Shown here in pieces: positions 15,109 to 21,325 of a stretch of 47,566 nt of DNA. The notes beneath the pieces are model-generated. The model was not told where the DNA came from, did no database searches, and worked only from the letters and a program-made list of their open reading frames with translations. Within the stretch, counting starts at the first letter, position 1. Each line of letters begins with the position of its first letter. Both the position numbers and the translations under genes were made by a program. Where the stretch lies: NCBI GenBank assembly GCA_017937385.1, contig JAGBDR010000074.1:1-47566 (forward strand), written 5' to 3'. The stretch comes from Parabacteroides sp. GTDB lineage: Bacteria > Bacteroidota > Bacteroidia > Bacteroidales > Tannerellaceae.

Positions 15109-15531
15109 TTAAGTATGCTCAATGATATTGTTGTATAGATTTCTTAAATTTTGTAGTGCAAATTTGGGTTTCAATTGGCATTGCCACACAACTATTACGT
15201 GATAGCCAAGTTTCTCTAATTCTTGCATTTTACGTTTGTCTCTTTCTAAATTATCCGTAATCTTCTTCTCCCAATATTTCAAATTTGTAGATGGTAAATG
15301 AGCATATTTACATCCCTGATGTCCATGCCAAAAACAACCATTCACGAATATTACAGTCTTGTACTTTTGAAGAACAATATCCGGAGTTCCCGGTAAACGT
15401 TTTACATTTTTTCGATATCGCAAACCTTGAGCAAACAGATATTTTCGGACGATTTTTTCCGGTTTGGTTTCTTTCCCTGTAACATGGGACATTATTTCCG
15501 AACGCTTTTCTTTACTAACTGTATCTGCCAT
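15109..15531 (-). CDS. vsr: Very-short-patch mismatch repair endonuclease
   Basis: The 140-residue enzyme nicks DNA 5' of a T:G mismatch made when 5-methylcytosine deaminates. Key residues line up with E. coli Vsr numbering: D51 in LPGTPDIVL, the zinc/active-site set C66, H69, H71 and C74 in VNGCFWHGHQGC, and C118 near VVWQCQ. The N-terminal RSEIMSHVTGKETKPE is also typical. It starts 2 bases after the GHKL-TIR stop codon and lies in the same transcript as a cytosine-5 methyltransferase, the expected partner. The nearest remaining gene to its left is the broken HAD gene. Confidence 0.94.
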   Translation of the reverse strand: MADTVSKEKRSEIMSHVTGKETKPEKIVRKYLFAQGLRYRKNVKRLPGTPDIVLQKYKTVIFVNGCFWHGHQGCKYAHLPSTNLKYWEKKITDNLERDKRKMQELEKLGYHVIVVWQCQLKPKFALQNLRNLYNNIIEHT

Positions 15532-15533
15532 AT

Positions 15534-17405
15534 CTACTTAATAATGATTCGTTCTTTAAGATGATCCAGATTTTCTTTACGGCTCTTCTTTACATAACCA
15601 AGCTTATCGCAAATTGCTTCTATTTTCTGACAAAAAATATCGGCATTTAATTTGGTCATACACAACTCTCCATTCTCATTCCGTTCTGTACAGTGCCATA
15701 ATGCTTCATCATTTAAGGGATGTTGCGGTTTGAATGGGGAAATATTGAAGATTCTATTATCTACTTGTGTAATCCAAGATGCTCCGATTTCAGTCATCGC
15801 ACCCCATGCACTCAGTGTGTTATCACTCGTAACGAATATGACGAATATTTTTTGATTAGAATAACTTTCTACAAAGAAATCCCGTAAATAGTTATATATT
15901 GAAGCAGTTCCTTCGGGAATACGGCTAACTTCATCATCGCAACTCGTATATAAGATATCTTCGGGCGGGATATTATTAAATACTAAAAATAAGTATATTA
16001 AATCTGCTAATGCTTTGTCTTTAGAAGCGTGGCTAATCAATATTTTCTTTTTCTGAGAATCCACTACAGTTTTTAATCCTAAAGCATTAGCATTATTATT
16101 AATCGCATCGGATATGACTCGTTCAATCGTTTTTCTCGGAGAGTCAGGTGCTAATCGTTCTATACTTTCAGCCGCATTTTCGCTCACTATATTTTTAAAT
16201 GCATCAACTGCTTCTCTAAATTTTGCTTCTGTATTTTTTTGTTCCTGCAATTTACGTTGTTTTTTCTCTCGGTTCTGTTCGTTAGAATACAAACTTCTTT
16301 TACGAAGAATATCTGGTAGTAGAACAGTTCGCACATATTTTATAACGGCTTCATATCGCGGATCATCGGACTTATAGCCTTGCCTATTGCTCAATGCCAT
16401 ATCTGGGAGTTCCGATAATTCGAATAAATCAACATATAGCTGTCCAACTACATAAACTTCATTCAATTTATTTTGACCGACTATCGGCAAAATATTGAAT
16501 TCCCCCATTTTTTTATTCGCATATAGAGATATGAAGTTGTCAGGGAAATCTGTAAGTGTTGCTTTACGTCCTCTTGTAGACGCATATGAACCGATCCATC
16601 CCATTATTTTGAGTGTATATTCATGATTTTCTCCTGCATTGTCTTTTAGACTGATCGGCTCTGTATATGGCACTCTTTGCTCAACTAGTTCAGCTCGTTT
16701 TACAGGATATTTGTCAGGGACATTTTTTGCTAATGCAGAAAATTCATCCCCTAAAGATATAAATGCACATAACTCTTTTGCTATATTTTCATCAAATGTC
16801 TCTATTGTAACTATTTCTTTCCCTCTGATTACGTGTATTTTGAAATCATCGTTGATTAATGGAAATATTTTTAACAGATTTCGTTTAACCGAATCCAAAG
16901 ACTTATTCAATCTGTATTGAGGATTCCTCATCACAATCGCTGTCCCATGATCTTGAATATATACGAATCTTATATCATCATCGACAATAGGTTGTAACTT
17001 ATTCCCCTCAATCGGTCTACGAGATAAAACGAAACCGGATTTCTCGTTATCGCAGATCGTCATTACATCAACGGATTCGGAAACTGACAATGCTGCCAAT
17101 TTACCAACGCCTTTTCGTCCCATTTTTCGTCTCTCTCCGGAACGTGTCATAGATTCTTCTTCTTTAACTCGAGAAACACCGGCTACATTTAAGAATTTCT
17201 TTACTTCACCATTCTTATAAGACATACCATGCCCATCATCCTCAATTCTTATATCGTCTTTATTAGAAATGATATATACATTATGGGCATCTGCATCATA
17301 CGCATTAGCGATAAGTTCGGCCAATACATAATAAATGTTCGTATAAAGATTCGGTCCCAATAACTCTAAAATTCGAGGATCGACATTAAGCTGATATTCT
17401 TTCAT
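15534..17405 (-). CDS. GHKL (MORC/Hsp90-like) ATPase with C-terminal TIR domain
   Basis: The 623-residue protein starts with a GHKL ATP-binding fold: ELIANAYDADA (E30, N34, D37), DDGHGM (56-61) and the lid GRKGVGKLA (96-104). This resembles the MORC-like ATPases described near restriction-modification genes. A coiled, Lys/Gln-rich stretch at about 375-400 leads to a TIR-like domain from about 454. It opens with KILISHASKDKALADLI and contains SAWGAMTEIGASW, where E539 sits where the catalytic glutamate of NAD-cleaving TIR domains is expected. ATP-driven sensing coupled to NAD depletion or signalling is a reasonable inference, not shown. It lies between vsr and the cytosine-5 methyltransferase in one apparent operon. 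Base composition is AT-rich relative to flanking genes. Confidence 0.82.
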   Translation of the reverse strand: MKEYQLNVDPRILELLGPNLYTNIYYVLAELIANAYDADAHNVYIISNKDDIRIEDDGHGMSYKNGEVKKFLNVAGVSRVKEEESMTRSGERRKMGRKGVGKLAALSVSESVDVMTICDNEKSGFVLSRRPIEGNKLQPIVDDDIRFVYIQDHGTAIVMRNPQYRLNKSLDSVKRNLLKIFPLINDDFKIHVIRGKEIVTIETFDENIAKELCAFISLGDEFSALAKNVPDKYPVKRAELVEQRVPYTEPISLKDNAGENHEYTLKIMGWIGSYASTRGRKATLTDFPDNFISLYANKKMGEFNILPIVGQNKLNEVYVVGQLYVDLFELSELPDMALSNRQGYKSDDPRYEAVIKYVRTVLLPDILRKRSLYSNEQNREKKQRKLQEQKNTEAKFREAVDAFKNIVSENAAESIERLAPDSPRKTIERVISDAINNNANALGLKTVVDSQKKKILISHASKDKALADLIYLFLVFNNIPPEDILYTSCDDEVSRIPEGTASIYNYLRDFFVESYSNQKIFVIFVTSDNTLSAWGAMTEIGASWITQVDNRIFNISPFKPQHPLNDEALWHCTERNENGELCMTKLNADIFCQKIEAICDKLGYVKKSRKENLDHLKERIIIK

Positions 17406-17421
17406 GTAAATATTTATGGAG

Positions 17422-18504
17422 TTAGTTGATAATTCGGTTCAAATGGCATATAATGCTCTCTGCTATGACTTCTCCCAATCTTGGCGGAACGGCATTGCCG
17501 ATATATCTCGAAGCCTTAGTTATAGCGACATACTCTTCGTTATCGAAAAATTTATACGTTTTTGGAAAAGTTTGTATCAGAGCCGCTTCTCTAATGGAAA
17601 TGGCACGATCTTGTATAGGATGTCCGAATCTGCCGTTACCTAAACCTGTACATTGGGTTGTCATAGTAGGGGCAGGTTTCTCCCAAACCATTCTACCGTA
17701 GACACTACCGAATGATCGTCCTTTATCGGTTTTATGACACCGTAATTGTAAATGATACGGCCAATCTTTCCAACTTCCTCCGTATGGAGTGTGATGAAGA
17801 CGTTCAAGATTTAATGACGATAATGCTTTGGCCCTATGCAACGGATCATTTTTATCGGTTTCTCCAGCTTTGAGTTCAGGTAAATCGCCGATCGTTTCTT
17901 TTACCGTCTTATATTCGTTAGGCTTATGCGTCGGGGCGATCAACTCGATATCTCCCAATCGCGATGCTAATAATACCAATCTTTTTCTAGTTTGCGGTAT
18001 TCCGTAATCAGGGCAATATACAGGCTTTACCCAGATATGATATCCTTCATTTTTCAAAAGATTCTCAAAATCGGATAAAACGGGCTTTTCTTTGAATGAT
18101 AAGATTTGAGCTACGTTTTCCATTGTAACGATGTCAGGGTGTACATCCTTAACCAATCGTCCGAATTCATATAATAAATCGTATTTATTCGGATCTTTCT
18201 TTTTGTTTTTGAATGCATACGACGAAAACGGTTGGCAAGGAGCACATCCTGCCAAAACTCGAATAGAGCCTTTACTATAGGCTGTACGAATTTCATCCGG
18301 AGATACCGTTTTAATATCCTTGTATATGAATTTCGCATCGTTATTCGTTTCATAAGCATATCGGCAGGTCGCGTCAAGATCATACCCTGCAAGAATATTG
18401 AATCCCTTGCTTTTCATCCCGAAGCTCAATCCGCCGATACCGCAAAATAGATCAATAACTTCTATAGATGGAAGCGAACTATTTTTAATATTTTTTTCTT
18501 TCAT
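17422..18504 (-). CDS. DNA (cytosine-5-)-methyltransferase
   Basis: The 360-residue m5C methyltransferase has motif I DLFCGIGGL (19-27), the catalytic cysteine C90 in GCAPCQPFS, ENV at 129-131, QTRKR at 171-175 and motif X GNAVPP (336-341). The target recognition region lies between about 230 and 300; the recognised sequence cannot be read from it. The neighbouring vsr gene fits, since Vsr repairs deaminated methylcytosine. Whether it belongs with the MjaI-type enzyme upstream or with the GHKL-TIR protein downstream is open. It is followed by GHKL-TIR after 16 bases. Confidence 0.95.
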   Translation of the reverse strand: MKEKNIKNSSLPSIEVIDLFCGIGGLSFGMKSKGFNILAGYDLDATCRYAYETNNDAKFIYKDIKTVSPDEIRTAYSKGSIRVLAGCAPCQPFSSYAFKNKKKDPNKYDLLYEFGRLVKDVHPDIVTMENVAQILSFKEKPVLSDFENLLKNEGYHIWVKPVYCPDYGIPQTRKRLVLLASRLGDIELIAPTHKPNEYKTVKETIGDLPELKAGETDKNDPLHRAKALSSLNLERLHHTPYGGSWKDWPYHLQLRCHKTDKGRSFGSVYGRMVWEKPAPTMTTQCTGLGNGRFGHPIQDRAISIREAALIQTFPKTYKFFDNEEYVAITKASRYIGNAVPPRLGEVIAESIICHLNRIIN

Positions 18505-18528: not shown

Positions 18529-19224
18529 TCAATTCGACAACCGATCTATTTCGGATTGAATATGGCTTATAACCTCTTTATTGGCAATTTCTCCATCTAA
18601 ACTGAATACTATAAATACATTACCGCCATATTGTTCTTTGAACGATTCGAAACTTGCTTTCATACGTTCGGTCAGCGAATAACTACCGAAATTGGCACTT
18701 GCTGTTATCGGTTTAATTTGTACCCCTATGGTTTTATCTCCGATTTTTGCGATATAATCTATATCTCCAGCATGATCCAATTCGGGATCGCTTTCTTCGA
18801 ATTTGATATTAGGAAATACTTTAGCCAATCCGTCATTGATTACAGACTTTTCTCGTATATAACCGTCATAAGTACGATTTATAGTCAAATTGTATATATA
18901 GTCAATACAATCCTGTTCTGTCAATTCACGAAACGCAGTTTCCCATTCAGGAATTACGACCTCTGTAATTTTTGCATATAATCGTTCTCCCAGTTCATGC
19001 AGACTCTCTATTGTGATTTTCGTCGGATTTTTACCTGTAGTATGAGCATTTTCGAAATACCATGACTGCCATTCCTCGAAAGAAGAAGGTTGGCAATCGC
19101 GAATAAGAGCCATAACAGCACCTACTTTATTGGGACGGGATAATTGATATGTCTGGCAAGCGTAGTTCAGTACGCGTTCTTTTTTTCCGAAATTCATCGA
19201 ATATTTATCCATAATTTTATGCAT
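18529..19224 (-). CDS. MjaI-family type II restriction endonuclease
   Basis: The 231-residue protein resembles the MjaI family, whose founder cuts at CTAG. The N-terminal YQLSRPNKVGAVMALIRDC is family-like. A PD-(D/E)xK-type core is visible as LDHAGDIDYIAKIGDKTIGVQIKP: D154/D156 for metal, then Q169-x-K171, with Gln in place of the usual Glu. The ATG at 19224 overlaps the methyltransferase stop by 8 bases; a second ATG at 19212 avoids the overlap. The close coupling to the methyltransferase gene supports an R-M pair. Specificity for CTAG is inferred from the family. Confidence 0.82.
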   Translation of the reverse strand: MHKIMDKYSMNFGKKERVLNYACQTYQLSRPNKVGAVMALIRDCQPSSFEEWQSWYFENAHTTGKNPTKITIESLHELGERLYAKITEVVIPEWETAFRELTEQDCIDYIYNLTINRTYDGYIREKSVINDGLAKVFPNIKFEESDPELDHAGDIDYIAKIGDKTIGVQIKPITASANFGSYSLTERMKASFESFKEQYGGNVFIVFSLDGEIANKEVISHIQSEIDRLSN

Positions 19225-20500
19225 TTATTAGTTTTTCGAATTTACTTTTATATTTGAAATCGAAAGAATAATCTACATCGACTAAACCGTTCTTCAACAT
19301 ATGCGCATTTATAAAGGTCTTGTTATCCAAGTATAAATAGCAAAGCAACATATCATTATCATCATATTTTATCGTATCGTAGCGCAAAAAAACTTTGTGC
19401 CTTTTGGTCTTCTCCAAAAGAAATTTCGTGGCATTACCGTTGACCGATGGCTTTTCTTTGATACCGAGCAATCGTATGGTAAGCCCGTTATTCAAAACGA
19501 TTGTATTCGGAGACAAAATCGCCTTGACCGAGAAATATTCTTCTCTTTCCTTTTTATCTTTGTCTATTCGAGATCCAAACTGCAAACGCTTGATGTCTAT
19601 CTTGTTTTCCATTTTATGAGGATCGCAGAAAAGATACGGTAAGATTTCCATCTTCTTTGCTATATCGAAAGCGTTTCCATCTGTTTTGTATCTATATTCT
19701 ACAGCCCCGAACGATATAGACGATGATACCTTTTCTTCATAAAACTTTCTGAAATCAGGATTTATTTCGTATCCTATGGAGTTGCGTTGTAGGTTACGTG
19801 CGGCTAAAGCCGTCGTTCCGCTGCCCATGAACGGATCAAATACCGTTTCTCCTGCAAAAGAGAACATTTTTATCAAACGACGTGGTAATTCTTCAGGAAA
19901 TACAGCAATATGCCCATCTTGTTTAGCTCCGCCGAAATTCCAATGAGAAGCAAAAAATGTATTCCATTCATCTTTGGTCATTTCCGAACATTGCTTTTGC
20001 GCTAAGGTAGGAACAGGAGCTTTACCTTGTTTCTTGAATATGAGGATAAACTCGTAATCTATTTTCAAAATACCGTTTCGAGGATAAGGAAAACTACCCA
20101 TGACAGCTCCTCCCCCAGTCGTATTCATAGTTGTCTGCTTTTGCCAAATTATTGCTCCCATATAATCCATACCGAGGGCTTCGCAAAAACGTATAATCTC
20201 GGTTCTTATAGGAATTACTTTATAACGTCCGTAATAGACGGAACGGGCGAATTGGTCTCCGATATTTATGCACAAACGGCAACCATCATGTAAAACTCGA
20301 TTACACTCTGCCCAGACCATATTCAGGTTATTAATATAGTTTTCGTAACTGTCATGAAATCCTATTTGTCCATCATTCCCATAGTCTTTCAATTGCCAAT
20401 ACGGGGGCGATGTAATGATCAAATGAACGGATTTGTCCAGCATAAGAGAAAGATTCCTACTGTCTCCGTTGATAAGTGTGTGTATTGTCTTTATTTCCAT
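19217..20500 (-). CDS. DNA methyltransferase (probable N4-cytosine type) with SNase-like C-terminal domain
   Basis: Residues 1-260 form an amino-methyltransferase with TSPPYW (30-35) ahead of the AdoMet motif DPFMGSGTT (222-230), a beta-class order. TSPPYW favours N4-cytosine methylation, as for the MjaI partner enzyme. Residues about 323-425 look like a staphylococcal-nuclease (OB/Tudor-like) fold: LNNGLTIRLLGIKEK, a short helix, a beta segment ending CYLYLDNKTF, then NAHMLKNGLVDVD. The arginine at the SNase R35-like place is present but the second catalytic arginine is replaced (NDMLLCYLYL), so it is probably a binding rather than cutting domain. The start overlaps the end of the degraded XRE gene. 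Confidence 0.85.
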   Translation of the reverse strand: MEIKTIHTLINGDSRNLSLMLDKSVHLIITSPPYWQLKDYGNDGQIGFHDSYENYINNLNMVWAECNRVLHDGCRLCINIGDQFARSVYYGRYKVIPIRTEIIRFCEALGMDYMGAIIWQKQTTMNTTGGGAVMGSFPYPRNGILKIDYEFILIFKKQGKAPVPTLAQKQCSEMTKDEWNTFFASHWNFGGAKQDGHIAVFPEELPRRLIKMFSFAGETVFDPFMGSGTTALAARNLQRNSIGYEINPDFRKFYEEKVSSSISFGAVEYRYKTDGNAFDIAKKMEILPYLFCDPHKMENKIDIKRLQFGSRIDKDKKEREEYFSVKAILSPNTIVLNNGLTIRLLGIKEKPSVNGNATKFLLEKTKRHKVFLRYDTIKYDDNDMLLCYLYLDNKTFINAHMLKNGLVDVDYSFDFKYKSKFEKLINA

Positions 20501-20777
20501 ATTCTATTGTCAATTATAGTCTTCAATGCTTTATCCGCAATGTTCTTATCATCTCCAATAATCGCATTTATCTTATCTGCAATCCAAAGGCTCAACAACT
20601 CTTCCCGTTCGATATTCAGATATCCGAAAGCAATACAACCTGCTCTCTTTTAGCCAAGCGGTCTCCGCGTTCTATTCGGCTGTACAGGGGAATATCTATA
20701 TTCAGAGCTAAGGCCAATTGTTTTTGCAACAATCCGCTTCAAACTCTAGCCGCTTTAATCTTTTGTACGAATAGCAT
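20491..20777 (-). pseudogene. Broken XRE-family control gene of the R-M system
   Basis: Reading on the minus strand from ATG at 20777 gives MLFVQKIKAARV, then an in-frame TGA (20739-20741). In the same frame follows GLLQKQLALALNIDI and LYSRIERGDRLAKRE, a clear helix-turn-helix with the SRIERG signature. Near 20622-20625 one base is missing; shifting frame gives YLNIEREELLSLWIADKI and a helical tail ending at TAA (20491-20493), overlapping the methyltransferase ATG. The restored protein would be about 95 residues, like the control proteins that precede methyltransferase genes. Two lesions make it a pseudogene unless the assembly is wrong. The reading frame is direct observation; the control role is inferred. 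Confidence 0.82.
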
Positions 20778-20804
20778 TTGATTTTTTAATTTGTTACTAT
20801 TTGG

Positions 20805-20812
20805 CAAATTTA
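20805..20812 (-). promoter_or_regulatory. -7 box of the restriction operon
   Basis: TAAATTTG on the minus strand, 28 bases before the ATG of the broken control gene. It is the likely start of the vsr to methyltransferase transcript. The -33 side is only GTG at an 18-base spacing. Confidence 0.4.
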
Positions 20813-21026: not shown

Positions 21027-21072
21027 AATCTACGCAAATCGCAGCAAAATACAGTTACGCTTTTATTTTAAC

Positions 21073-21208
21073 CAGGGCAACCGCATCAAAATTTCATCAA
21101 CTACTTAACTTGCTGATAATCAAATGTGACATTTTATAATATTGGATAAGATACAAAATAAACCAGTATTGATTATCAGATTGTTAAGAATTTGATGCGG
21201 TTGCCCTG
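21073..21208. mobile_element. MITE, 136 bp, with 18-bp inverted repeats and 9-bp target duplication
   Basis: CAGGGCAACCGCATCAAA at 21073-21090 is the exact reverse complement of 21191-21208. Further in, CTTAAC...CTGATAATCAA is also shared between the two ends. The 9-mer TATTTTAAC flanks it on both sides (21064-21072 and 21209-21217), a perfect target duplication. There is no coding capacity. It is therefore a non-autonomous element mobilised by a transposase elsewhere. The intact repeats and duplication suggest recent insertion. Confidence 0.9.
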
Positions 21209-21325
21209 TATTTTAACAATGCAACGCTCTTTGAGAATATTATTTCTTCTATATTAGGGACGCTCGCCCCTTATCCCGTATCAGACCGCAACCTACTCCC
21301 CATTCGCTCCTATCTTCACAACGGT

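Follow-up and report, generated by a model that had tools for sequence, protein, structure and literature searches.

A GHKL-TIR protein as a candidate restriction partner of an m5C methyltransferase in Parabacteroides sp.

The window analyzed here, a stretch of 47,566 nucleotides from Parabacteroides sp., encodes a 623 amino acid protein (P0001) in which a GHKL ATPase is joined to a C-terminal TIR domain. On balance we favor the reading, made from sequence comparisons, that this protein is the restriction partner of the m5C DNA methyltransferase encoded beside it, with a predicted NADase replacing the nuclease of related restriction enzymes. Its gene occupies the fourth place in an operon of five same-strand genes with intergenic gaps of no more than 24 bp:

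19217..20500, minus strand: N4/N6-type DNA methyltransferase (P0005), first gene of the operon and modification half of an MjaI-type system
18529..19224, minus strand: MjaI-type restriction endonuclease (P0004)
17422..18504, minus strand: m5C DNA methyltransferase (P0003), the conserved partner of GHKL-TIR
15534..17405, minus strand: GHKL-TIR (P0001), 623 aa, with the E539 codon at 15789-15791
15109..15531, minus strand: Vsr mismatch endonuclease (P0002), an optional part

Domain architecture of the GHKL-TIR protein

The P0005 protein matches Pfam N6_N4_Mtase (1.1e-43) and PADLOC MTase_II PDLC03259 (557 bits, residues 5-423 of 427), and P0004 matches Pfam RE_MjaI (9.2e-29) and PADLOC REase_II PDLC03450 (315 bits). 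Since P0005 and P0004 resemble a self-contained R-M system, GHKL-TIR together with its m5C partner (P0003; Pfam DNA_methylase, 6.5e-62) appears to be stacked behind a classical one, and the identical five genes in identical order are found in Hoylesella marshii (L002). The last gene, P0002, matches Pfam Vsr (6.5e-33) and TIGR00632 (146.8 bits, cut-off 97.85). P0005 also has a C-terminal SNase-like domain (Pfam SNase, 6.5e-5), a fusion that is an existing type, with the PADLOC model covering nearly the full length. Just upstream of the operon, positions 20510-20810 of the minus strand hold, as judged by eye, an XRE-like regulator remnant with stops, possibly a decayed controller gene, and at 21070-21212 there is a MITE-like element of 143 bp with inverted ends, of which the host assembly has four copies, this one included, at 99% identity or higher.

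An earlier note on this DNA had described a GHKL ATPase fused to a TIR-like domain within a vsr/methyltransferase operon, and domain searches confirm that description. The P0001 protein consists of an ATPase region (residues ~1-350), a mostly helical linker (351-450, with helices at 349-442 in the predicted structure) and a TIR domain (451-623). Residues 26-133 match Pfam HATPase_c_3 (1.4e-16), the GHKL ATP-binding motifs are intact, and in an alignment of 34 sequences the GHKL residues E30, N34, D57, G58, G60, G99 and G101 are invariant, as are K281 and K299. This alignment comprises the window protein and homologues from 33 of the 38 loci described below, with L008 (a near copy), L032 (gene split over two frames), and L021, L033 and L038 (cut by contig ends) left aside. 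As to an S5-fold domain behind the GHKL domain, the full P0001 model (pLDDT 75, pTM 0.55) matches the ATPase regions of MutL, GyrB and MORC2, but with an rmsd of about 8 to 14, and since it is too weak for domain arrangement the TIR domain was modelled alone. The protein is not a MORC proper, for the S5 motif GhXhhpXXRhl occurs in none of 36 sequences.

The TIR assignment comes from PADLOC SpbK, which matches the C-terminal half of P0001 (1e-20), and from structure; Pfam gave no TIR match in P0001. SpbK ranks first in the structure comparison of a model of residues 445-623 (pLDDT 79.3, pTM 0.78), in PDB sequence searches and in PADLOC, which bears out the proposed fold. The glutamate that had been placed at the catalytic position, E539, pairs with SpbK chain residue 216, which is E192 (an offset of 24, derived from S121/S122), a match made by sequence alignments rather than by coordinate overlay. 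E539 is invariant in 34/34 sequences; because 35 of the 173 TIR columns are invariant, this supports catalysis and does not prove it. In the accessible text of PMC12847820 a model puts nine SpbK residues at NAD+, and six of these are identical in P0001 (S122, T148, I155, I161, L165 and E192), with F162 replaced by Y504, S121 by A460 and Y188 by G535, though the S122 position is conserved in only 5/34 family members and is tyrosine in 24. The same source reports that mutating SpbK G194 or W197 abolishes defence, and the P0001 residues that pair with them, G541 and W544, are each present in 34/34 sequences. It reports further that the BB-loop substitution D158R kills SpbK activity; D158 falls on T500 in P0001 and on a gap in 27/34 family members. 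After the first TIR strand P0001 has an Hx[ST]xD motif (HASKD, 459-463), which is strict in 4/36 members, with six rows missed by the pattern and read by eye as non-strict, and the histidine is glutamine in 26/34 sequences. Taken as a homologue of SpbK, the TIR domain probably destroys NAD.

What the TIR domain replaces is indicated by the other half of the protein. Residues 4-408 of P0001 match NCBIfam NF050001 (BbrUII/HgiDII restriction enzyme) at 213.5 bits against a cut-off of 550, so far below it that the homology covers only half of the protein, while seven full-length members of that family (L042, L043, L044, L077, L079, L080 and L081; six plasmid-borne and one phage-borne) score 751 to 830 bits. 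All seven share a C-terminal D-x13-(D/E)xK block in which, by L043 numbering, D536 and K552 are invariant and position 550 is E or D, and we read these residues as a putative D-(D/E)xK nuclease; a Pfam scan of three nuclease-type members named no nuclease domain. An eighth match, L078 on a Burkholderia plasmid, was excluded from the C-terminal alignment because its annotated gene is just 437 codons long with transposases downstream. The phage member is annotated paraMORC3, which fits the RE-fold domain assigned to paraMORC3 in the available part of PMC2292703. In P0001 the TIR domain occupies the place of this nuclease, and the GHKL-TIR protein thus has an ATPase half in common with restriction enzymes and a different output domain.

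Homologues, methyltransferase linkage and gene neighbourhoods

A genome scan found 38 loci with long homologues, 55 to 92% identical, and one short fragment (L040, a 62-residue match that is not counted among the 38); since the queries were peptides of the window protein, distant members were missed. The hosts belong to Bacteroidota, Pseudomonadota, Verrucomicrobiota, Planctomycetota, Spirochaetota, Bacillota, an archaeal bin and others, many of them metagenome bins whose names may be wrong, and a Listeria homologue (L041, 48% identity) comes from a different collection. GHKL-TIR did not prove to be common: at E<=1e-60 it was found in 2/395 Bacteroidota genomes (that of the window and one more) and in 1/369 genomes of the class of the seed genome G004, namely G004 itself. 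Two phage records match, in the ATPase half only, and viral contigs gave one confirmed locus, L062, with Vsr and m5C genes downstream. Directly upstream of GHKL-TIR in that locus is a DUF4917 gene (L062:4850-5941) whose start looks SIR2-like by eye.

The search of these neighbourhoods upheld the proposed link with methyltransferases, an m5C gene being linked to GHKL-TIR in 33/38 loci. The m5C match lies inside the locus in 27 of the 38, mostly directly upstream on the same strand (on the opposite strand in L024, L031 and L032), and on the same contig but slightly outside the retrieved stretch in L010, L011 (opposite strand), L016, L019, L036 and L039, the L016 linkage being inferred via shared contig G004:C8. 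Contig ends truncate four of the remaining five loci (L021, L022, L034 and L038); L026 is the sole uncut locus that lacks a close m5C gene, having one ~11.5 kb off on the opposite strand. The metagenome bins behind L038 and L022 gave no m5C match and a weak one only (4.4e-8), respectively. Downstream of GHKL-TIR in L026 is a separate TIR_2 and TPR-S protein (L026:10517-11824). Chance linkage is unlikely, because a search of the 3.73 Mb host assembly with P0003 gives a single match at E<=0.001. Pairwise identities of GHKL-TIR and of m5C correlate over 32 pairs, 29 from the 38 loci plus those of the window, L041 and L062 (Mantel r 0.474, with 0/5000 permutations as high), a correlation to which shared ancestry could contribute.

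Residues 196-266 of P0003 we take, by motif order, to be its target-recognition region. Between 34 TIR-linked and three nuclease-linked methyltransferases the mean identity in this region is 0.51 (0.39 to 0.65), against 0.52 in the rest of the protein. Two controls were compared in all: an HpaII-type methyltransferase gave 0.17 in the region, with only 43 of 71 columns aligned, and a second, L056, gave 0.46. No GHKL gene was found in the 2783 bases of L056, and since it shares the region, the region has a wider spread and is not special to GHKL-linked enzymes. M.HgiDII, which lies outside the methyltransferase comparison, methylates GTCGAC (PMC5867850, accessible part), and the conservation suggests that TIR-linked and nuclease-linked methyltransferases share one target, which by family inference would be GTCGAC.

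The other neighbours vary. Vsr was detected in at least 13/38 loci (contig ends truncate some of the loci), and four of the 13 carry it as a fusion with a methyltransferase of another, HpaII type; the earlier note had placed GHKL-TIR between vsr and the methyltransferase gene, and Vsr is present in the window operon without being core, the 13/38 count ruling it out as a required nuclease partner in general. Upstream of GHKL-TIR lies an MjaI-type R-M pair in the window and in L002, and an HpaII-type pair in L004, L005, L006 and L008, the latter assigned by Pfam scan in L005 and by near-identical neighbours in the other three. L005:3873-5705, upstream of the m5C and GHKL-TIR pair, encodes a Vsr-m5C methyltransferase fusion beside an HpaII-type restriction enzyme.

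In three loci the m5C and GHKL-TIR genes stand alone among unrelated genes and look like two-gene cassettes: L041 in Listeria, with thiamine genes on one side and a glycosidase gene on the other; L014, where RNase R and rRNA methylase genes precede the pair; and L028, where a vitamin-kinase-type gene does. Ten neighbour proteins of these loci gave no PADLOC match and no R-M nuclease, and tblastn found no Vsr in them, so that GHKL-TIR is there the only candidate restriction effector. A MazF-like toxin gene lies ~1 kb downstream of the L014 cassette. Further cassette candidates, L013 and L025, were judged by their neighbours' first residues only, and L023 and likewise L018 were rejected because Vsr sits between their m5C and GHKL-TIR genes.

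Finally, in 10/38 loci (L010, L011, L015, L016, L019, L022, L034, L036, L038 and L039) GHKL-TIR lies among class 1 DISARM genes. The direct order is drmMI, GHKL-TIR, drmA in six of them (L010, L015, L016, L019, L022 and L039); the order includes one or two further genes in L011, L034 and L036, and L038 is truncated on its upstream side. PADLOC matched five flanking proteins, taken from L010, L011 and L016, to DrmD, DrmMI, DrmA, DrmB and DrmC, and the other DISARM loci were assigned by phmmer to these five. The top model for the L011 DrmD-like protein is DrmA (1957 bits, ahead of DrmD at 1506), but we retain the DrmD label, since a distinct DrmA-like protein is encoded after it and DrmD accounts for most of the models ranked next; for the L016 DrmMI-like protein REase_MTase_IIG (2140) precedes DrmMI (1973). 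The m5C gene is on the same contig in seven of the ten, the other three being cut by contig ends. On a maximum-likelihood tree of 37 sequences (L008, L021, L026 and L032 omitted, L041 and L062 included) the DISARM label takes five changes, of which well-supported branches force at least three, so that the association has been gained or lost several times. A regular place in DISARM is ruled out by L064, a DISARM operon that lacks GHKL-TIR and in which drmMI adjoins drmA, and by the 12 DrmMI-positive genomes among 369 (three above 1400 bits), where GHKL-TIR is found in seed genome G004 only; the 369-genome counts come from two draws, with the same genomes where listed. On a Deinococcus plasmid (L077) a nuclease-type BbrUII-family protein lies with m5C and Vsr genes beside DISARM genes, so nuclease and TIR forms both reach this niche. 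In the window, tblastn at 1e-3 found no match to drmA, drmB, drmD or drmMI.

Proposed mechanism and alternatives

In the mechanism that we propose, the methyltransferase would mark a short target wherever it occurs in the host's DNA, and its family points to GTCGAC or something near it. The GHKL(-S5) half would bind ATP and dimerize, a behaviour established for the MutL and MORC families. The dimer, acting as an ATP-driven clamp that senses methylation, would engage unmethylated target DNA of a phage or plasmid, and several engaged dimers might gather their TIR domains into a two-subunit TIR active site around E539. The assembled site would then cleave NAD+ and the infected cell would stop, an abortive outcome, while Vsr, where present, would repair T:G mismatches arising from deaminated m5C. 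The strongest argument for this account of a sensor with an NADase output is provided by the two-gene cassettes of L041, L028 and L014.

The earlier note had suggested a backup arm of the R-M system, and this persists as one possible reading, in which the TIR protein would be silent while the neighbouring R-M or DISARM system works and would fire if that first line of defence failed or a phage blocked it. Such a guard would be at home behind the MjaI-type pair of the window and L002, behind the HpaII-type pair of L004, L005, L006 and L008, and with DISARM in 10/38 loci, but we consider it improbable, given the cassettes with unrelated flanks and the retention of the m5C gene on the same contig even beside DISARM, in 7/10 loci.

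Other alternatives concern the TIR domain itself. That it is a nuclease or a nucleic-acid-binding domain, making GHKL-TIR an ordinary DNA-cutting enzyme with an unusual catalytic domain, was the 2008 guess of Iyer et al. (PMC2292703, available part) and agrees with its location where the relatives have a D-(D/E)xK nuclease; this appears quite unlikely, as SpbK, its closest relative of known structure, is an NADase, and the histidine of the proposed site is mostly glutamine (26/34, with the strict motif in 4/36) against 34/34 for E539. It could also be a signalling enzyme whose product, a cyclic ADP-ribose messenger, acts on a separate effector, as some bacterial TIR domains do in the parts of the Thoeris literature at hand, or a non-enzymatic scaffold that recruits a nuclease such as Vsr, for which the allosteric site allowed by Iyer et al. 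in the same part of their text leaves room. We regard these roles as unlikely: no effector gene recurs beside the cassette (neighbourhoods read by eye, with ten neighbours in three loci scanned), Vsr is found in just 13/38 loci, and a pure scaffold would not need E539.

The restriction-partner reading may be carried one step further, and it is quite possible, if a little short of probable, that GHKL-TIR is a portable module that restricts without cutting, in which a methylation-sensitive sensor has had its nuclease swapped for an SpbK-class NADase while keeping the DNA target of its cousins, and which is used alone with m5C, behind R-M systems, or repeatedly joined to class 1 DISARM, mostly in the drmMI-drmA gap, where it would give DISARM a suicide output. 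If this is true, one family would offer a matched pair that shows the change from cutting the invader to killing the cell with the same kind of sensor and self-mark, and because the nuclease and TIR types have homologous ATPase halves and methyltransferases whose target-recognition region is conserved, the exchange is directly testable. It would also explain the role of the paraMORC4 TIR, left open in 2008, and would mean that an NADase output has been added to some DISARM operons.

Comparison with known systems

The architecture is not new. The earlier note knew of no named system with this exact order, yet Iyer et al. had described the architecture and its R-M setting in 2008 (PMC2292703). 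They give the name paraMORC4 to GHKL-S5-TIR proteins encoded near R-M genes, among them methylases and Vsr, and in the accessible text propose the TIR as a nuclease or allosteric site and not as an NADase. The P0001 protein resembles paraMORC4 in having a GHKL ATPase followed by a C-terminal TIR, in its R-M neighbourhood with DNA methylases and Vsr, and in the Hx[ST]xD motif, but this motif is strict in only 4/36 sequences here, and the likeness is to the published description rather than to the 2008 sequences. Our literature search, most subscription papers and preprints being outside it, recognized by title or abstract no experimental study of GHKL-TIR or paraMORC4, and found neither the exchange of nuclease for TIR with a conserved methyltransferase, nor the SpbK match, nor the DISARM association. 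One source concerns other paraMORC-linked proteins and mentions no TIR in its accessible part (PMC8011034).

Class 1 DISARM (drmD, drmMI, drmA, drmB and drmC) accompanies ten of the 38 homologues, while the window itself gave no match to drmA, drmB, drmD or drmMI. The accessible paraMORC4 account does not mention DISARM, the available portion of PMC9142583 does not name GHKL-TIR as a DISARM part, and the search found no link between DISARM and GHKL-TIR, the one paper with DISARM, TIR and GHKL (PMC13373217) being concerned, in the part available, with another kinase.

The antiphage TIR NADase SpbK (PMC12847820) shares with P0001 the TIR fold, the aligned glutamate, and the glycine and tryptophan whose mutation inactivates it. 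It differs in that it senses the phage portal protein via its own N-terminal domain, and no GHKL ATPase or methyltransferase is mentioned for SpbK in the accessible text of that paper. The BbrUII/HgiDII enzymes (NF050001) are alike in their homologous N-terminal 400 residues and in pairing with an m5C enzyme of the same type whose target-recognition region is conserved, with Vsr nearby in L043, L077 and L081; they differ from P0001, apart from its score of 213 against 550, in carrying a putative D-(D/E)xK nuclease at the C terminus where P0001 has the TIR domain.
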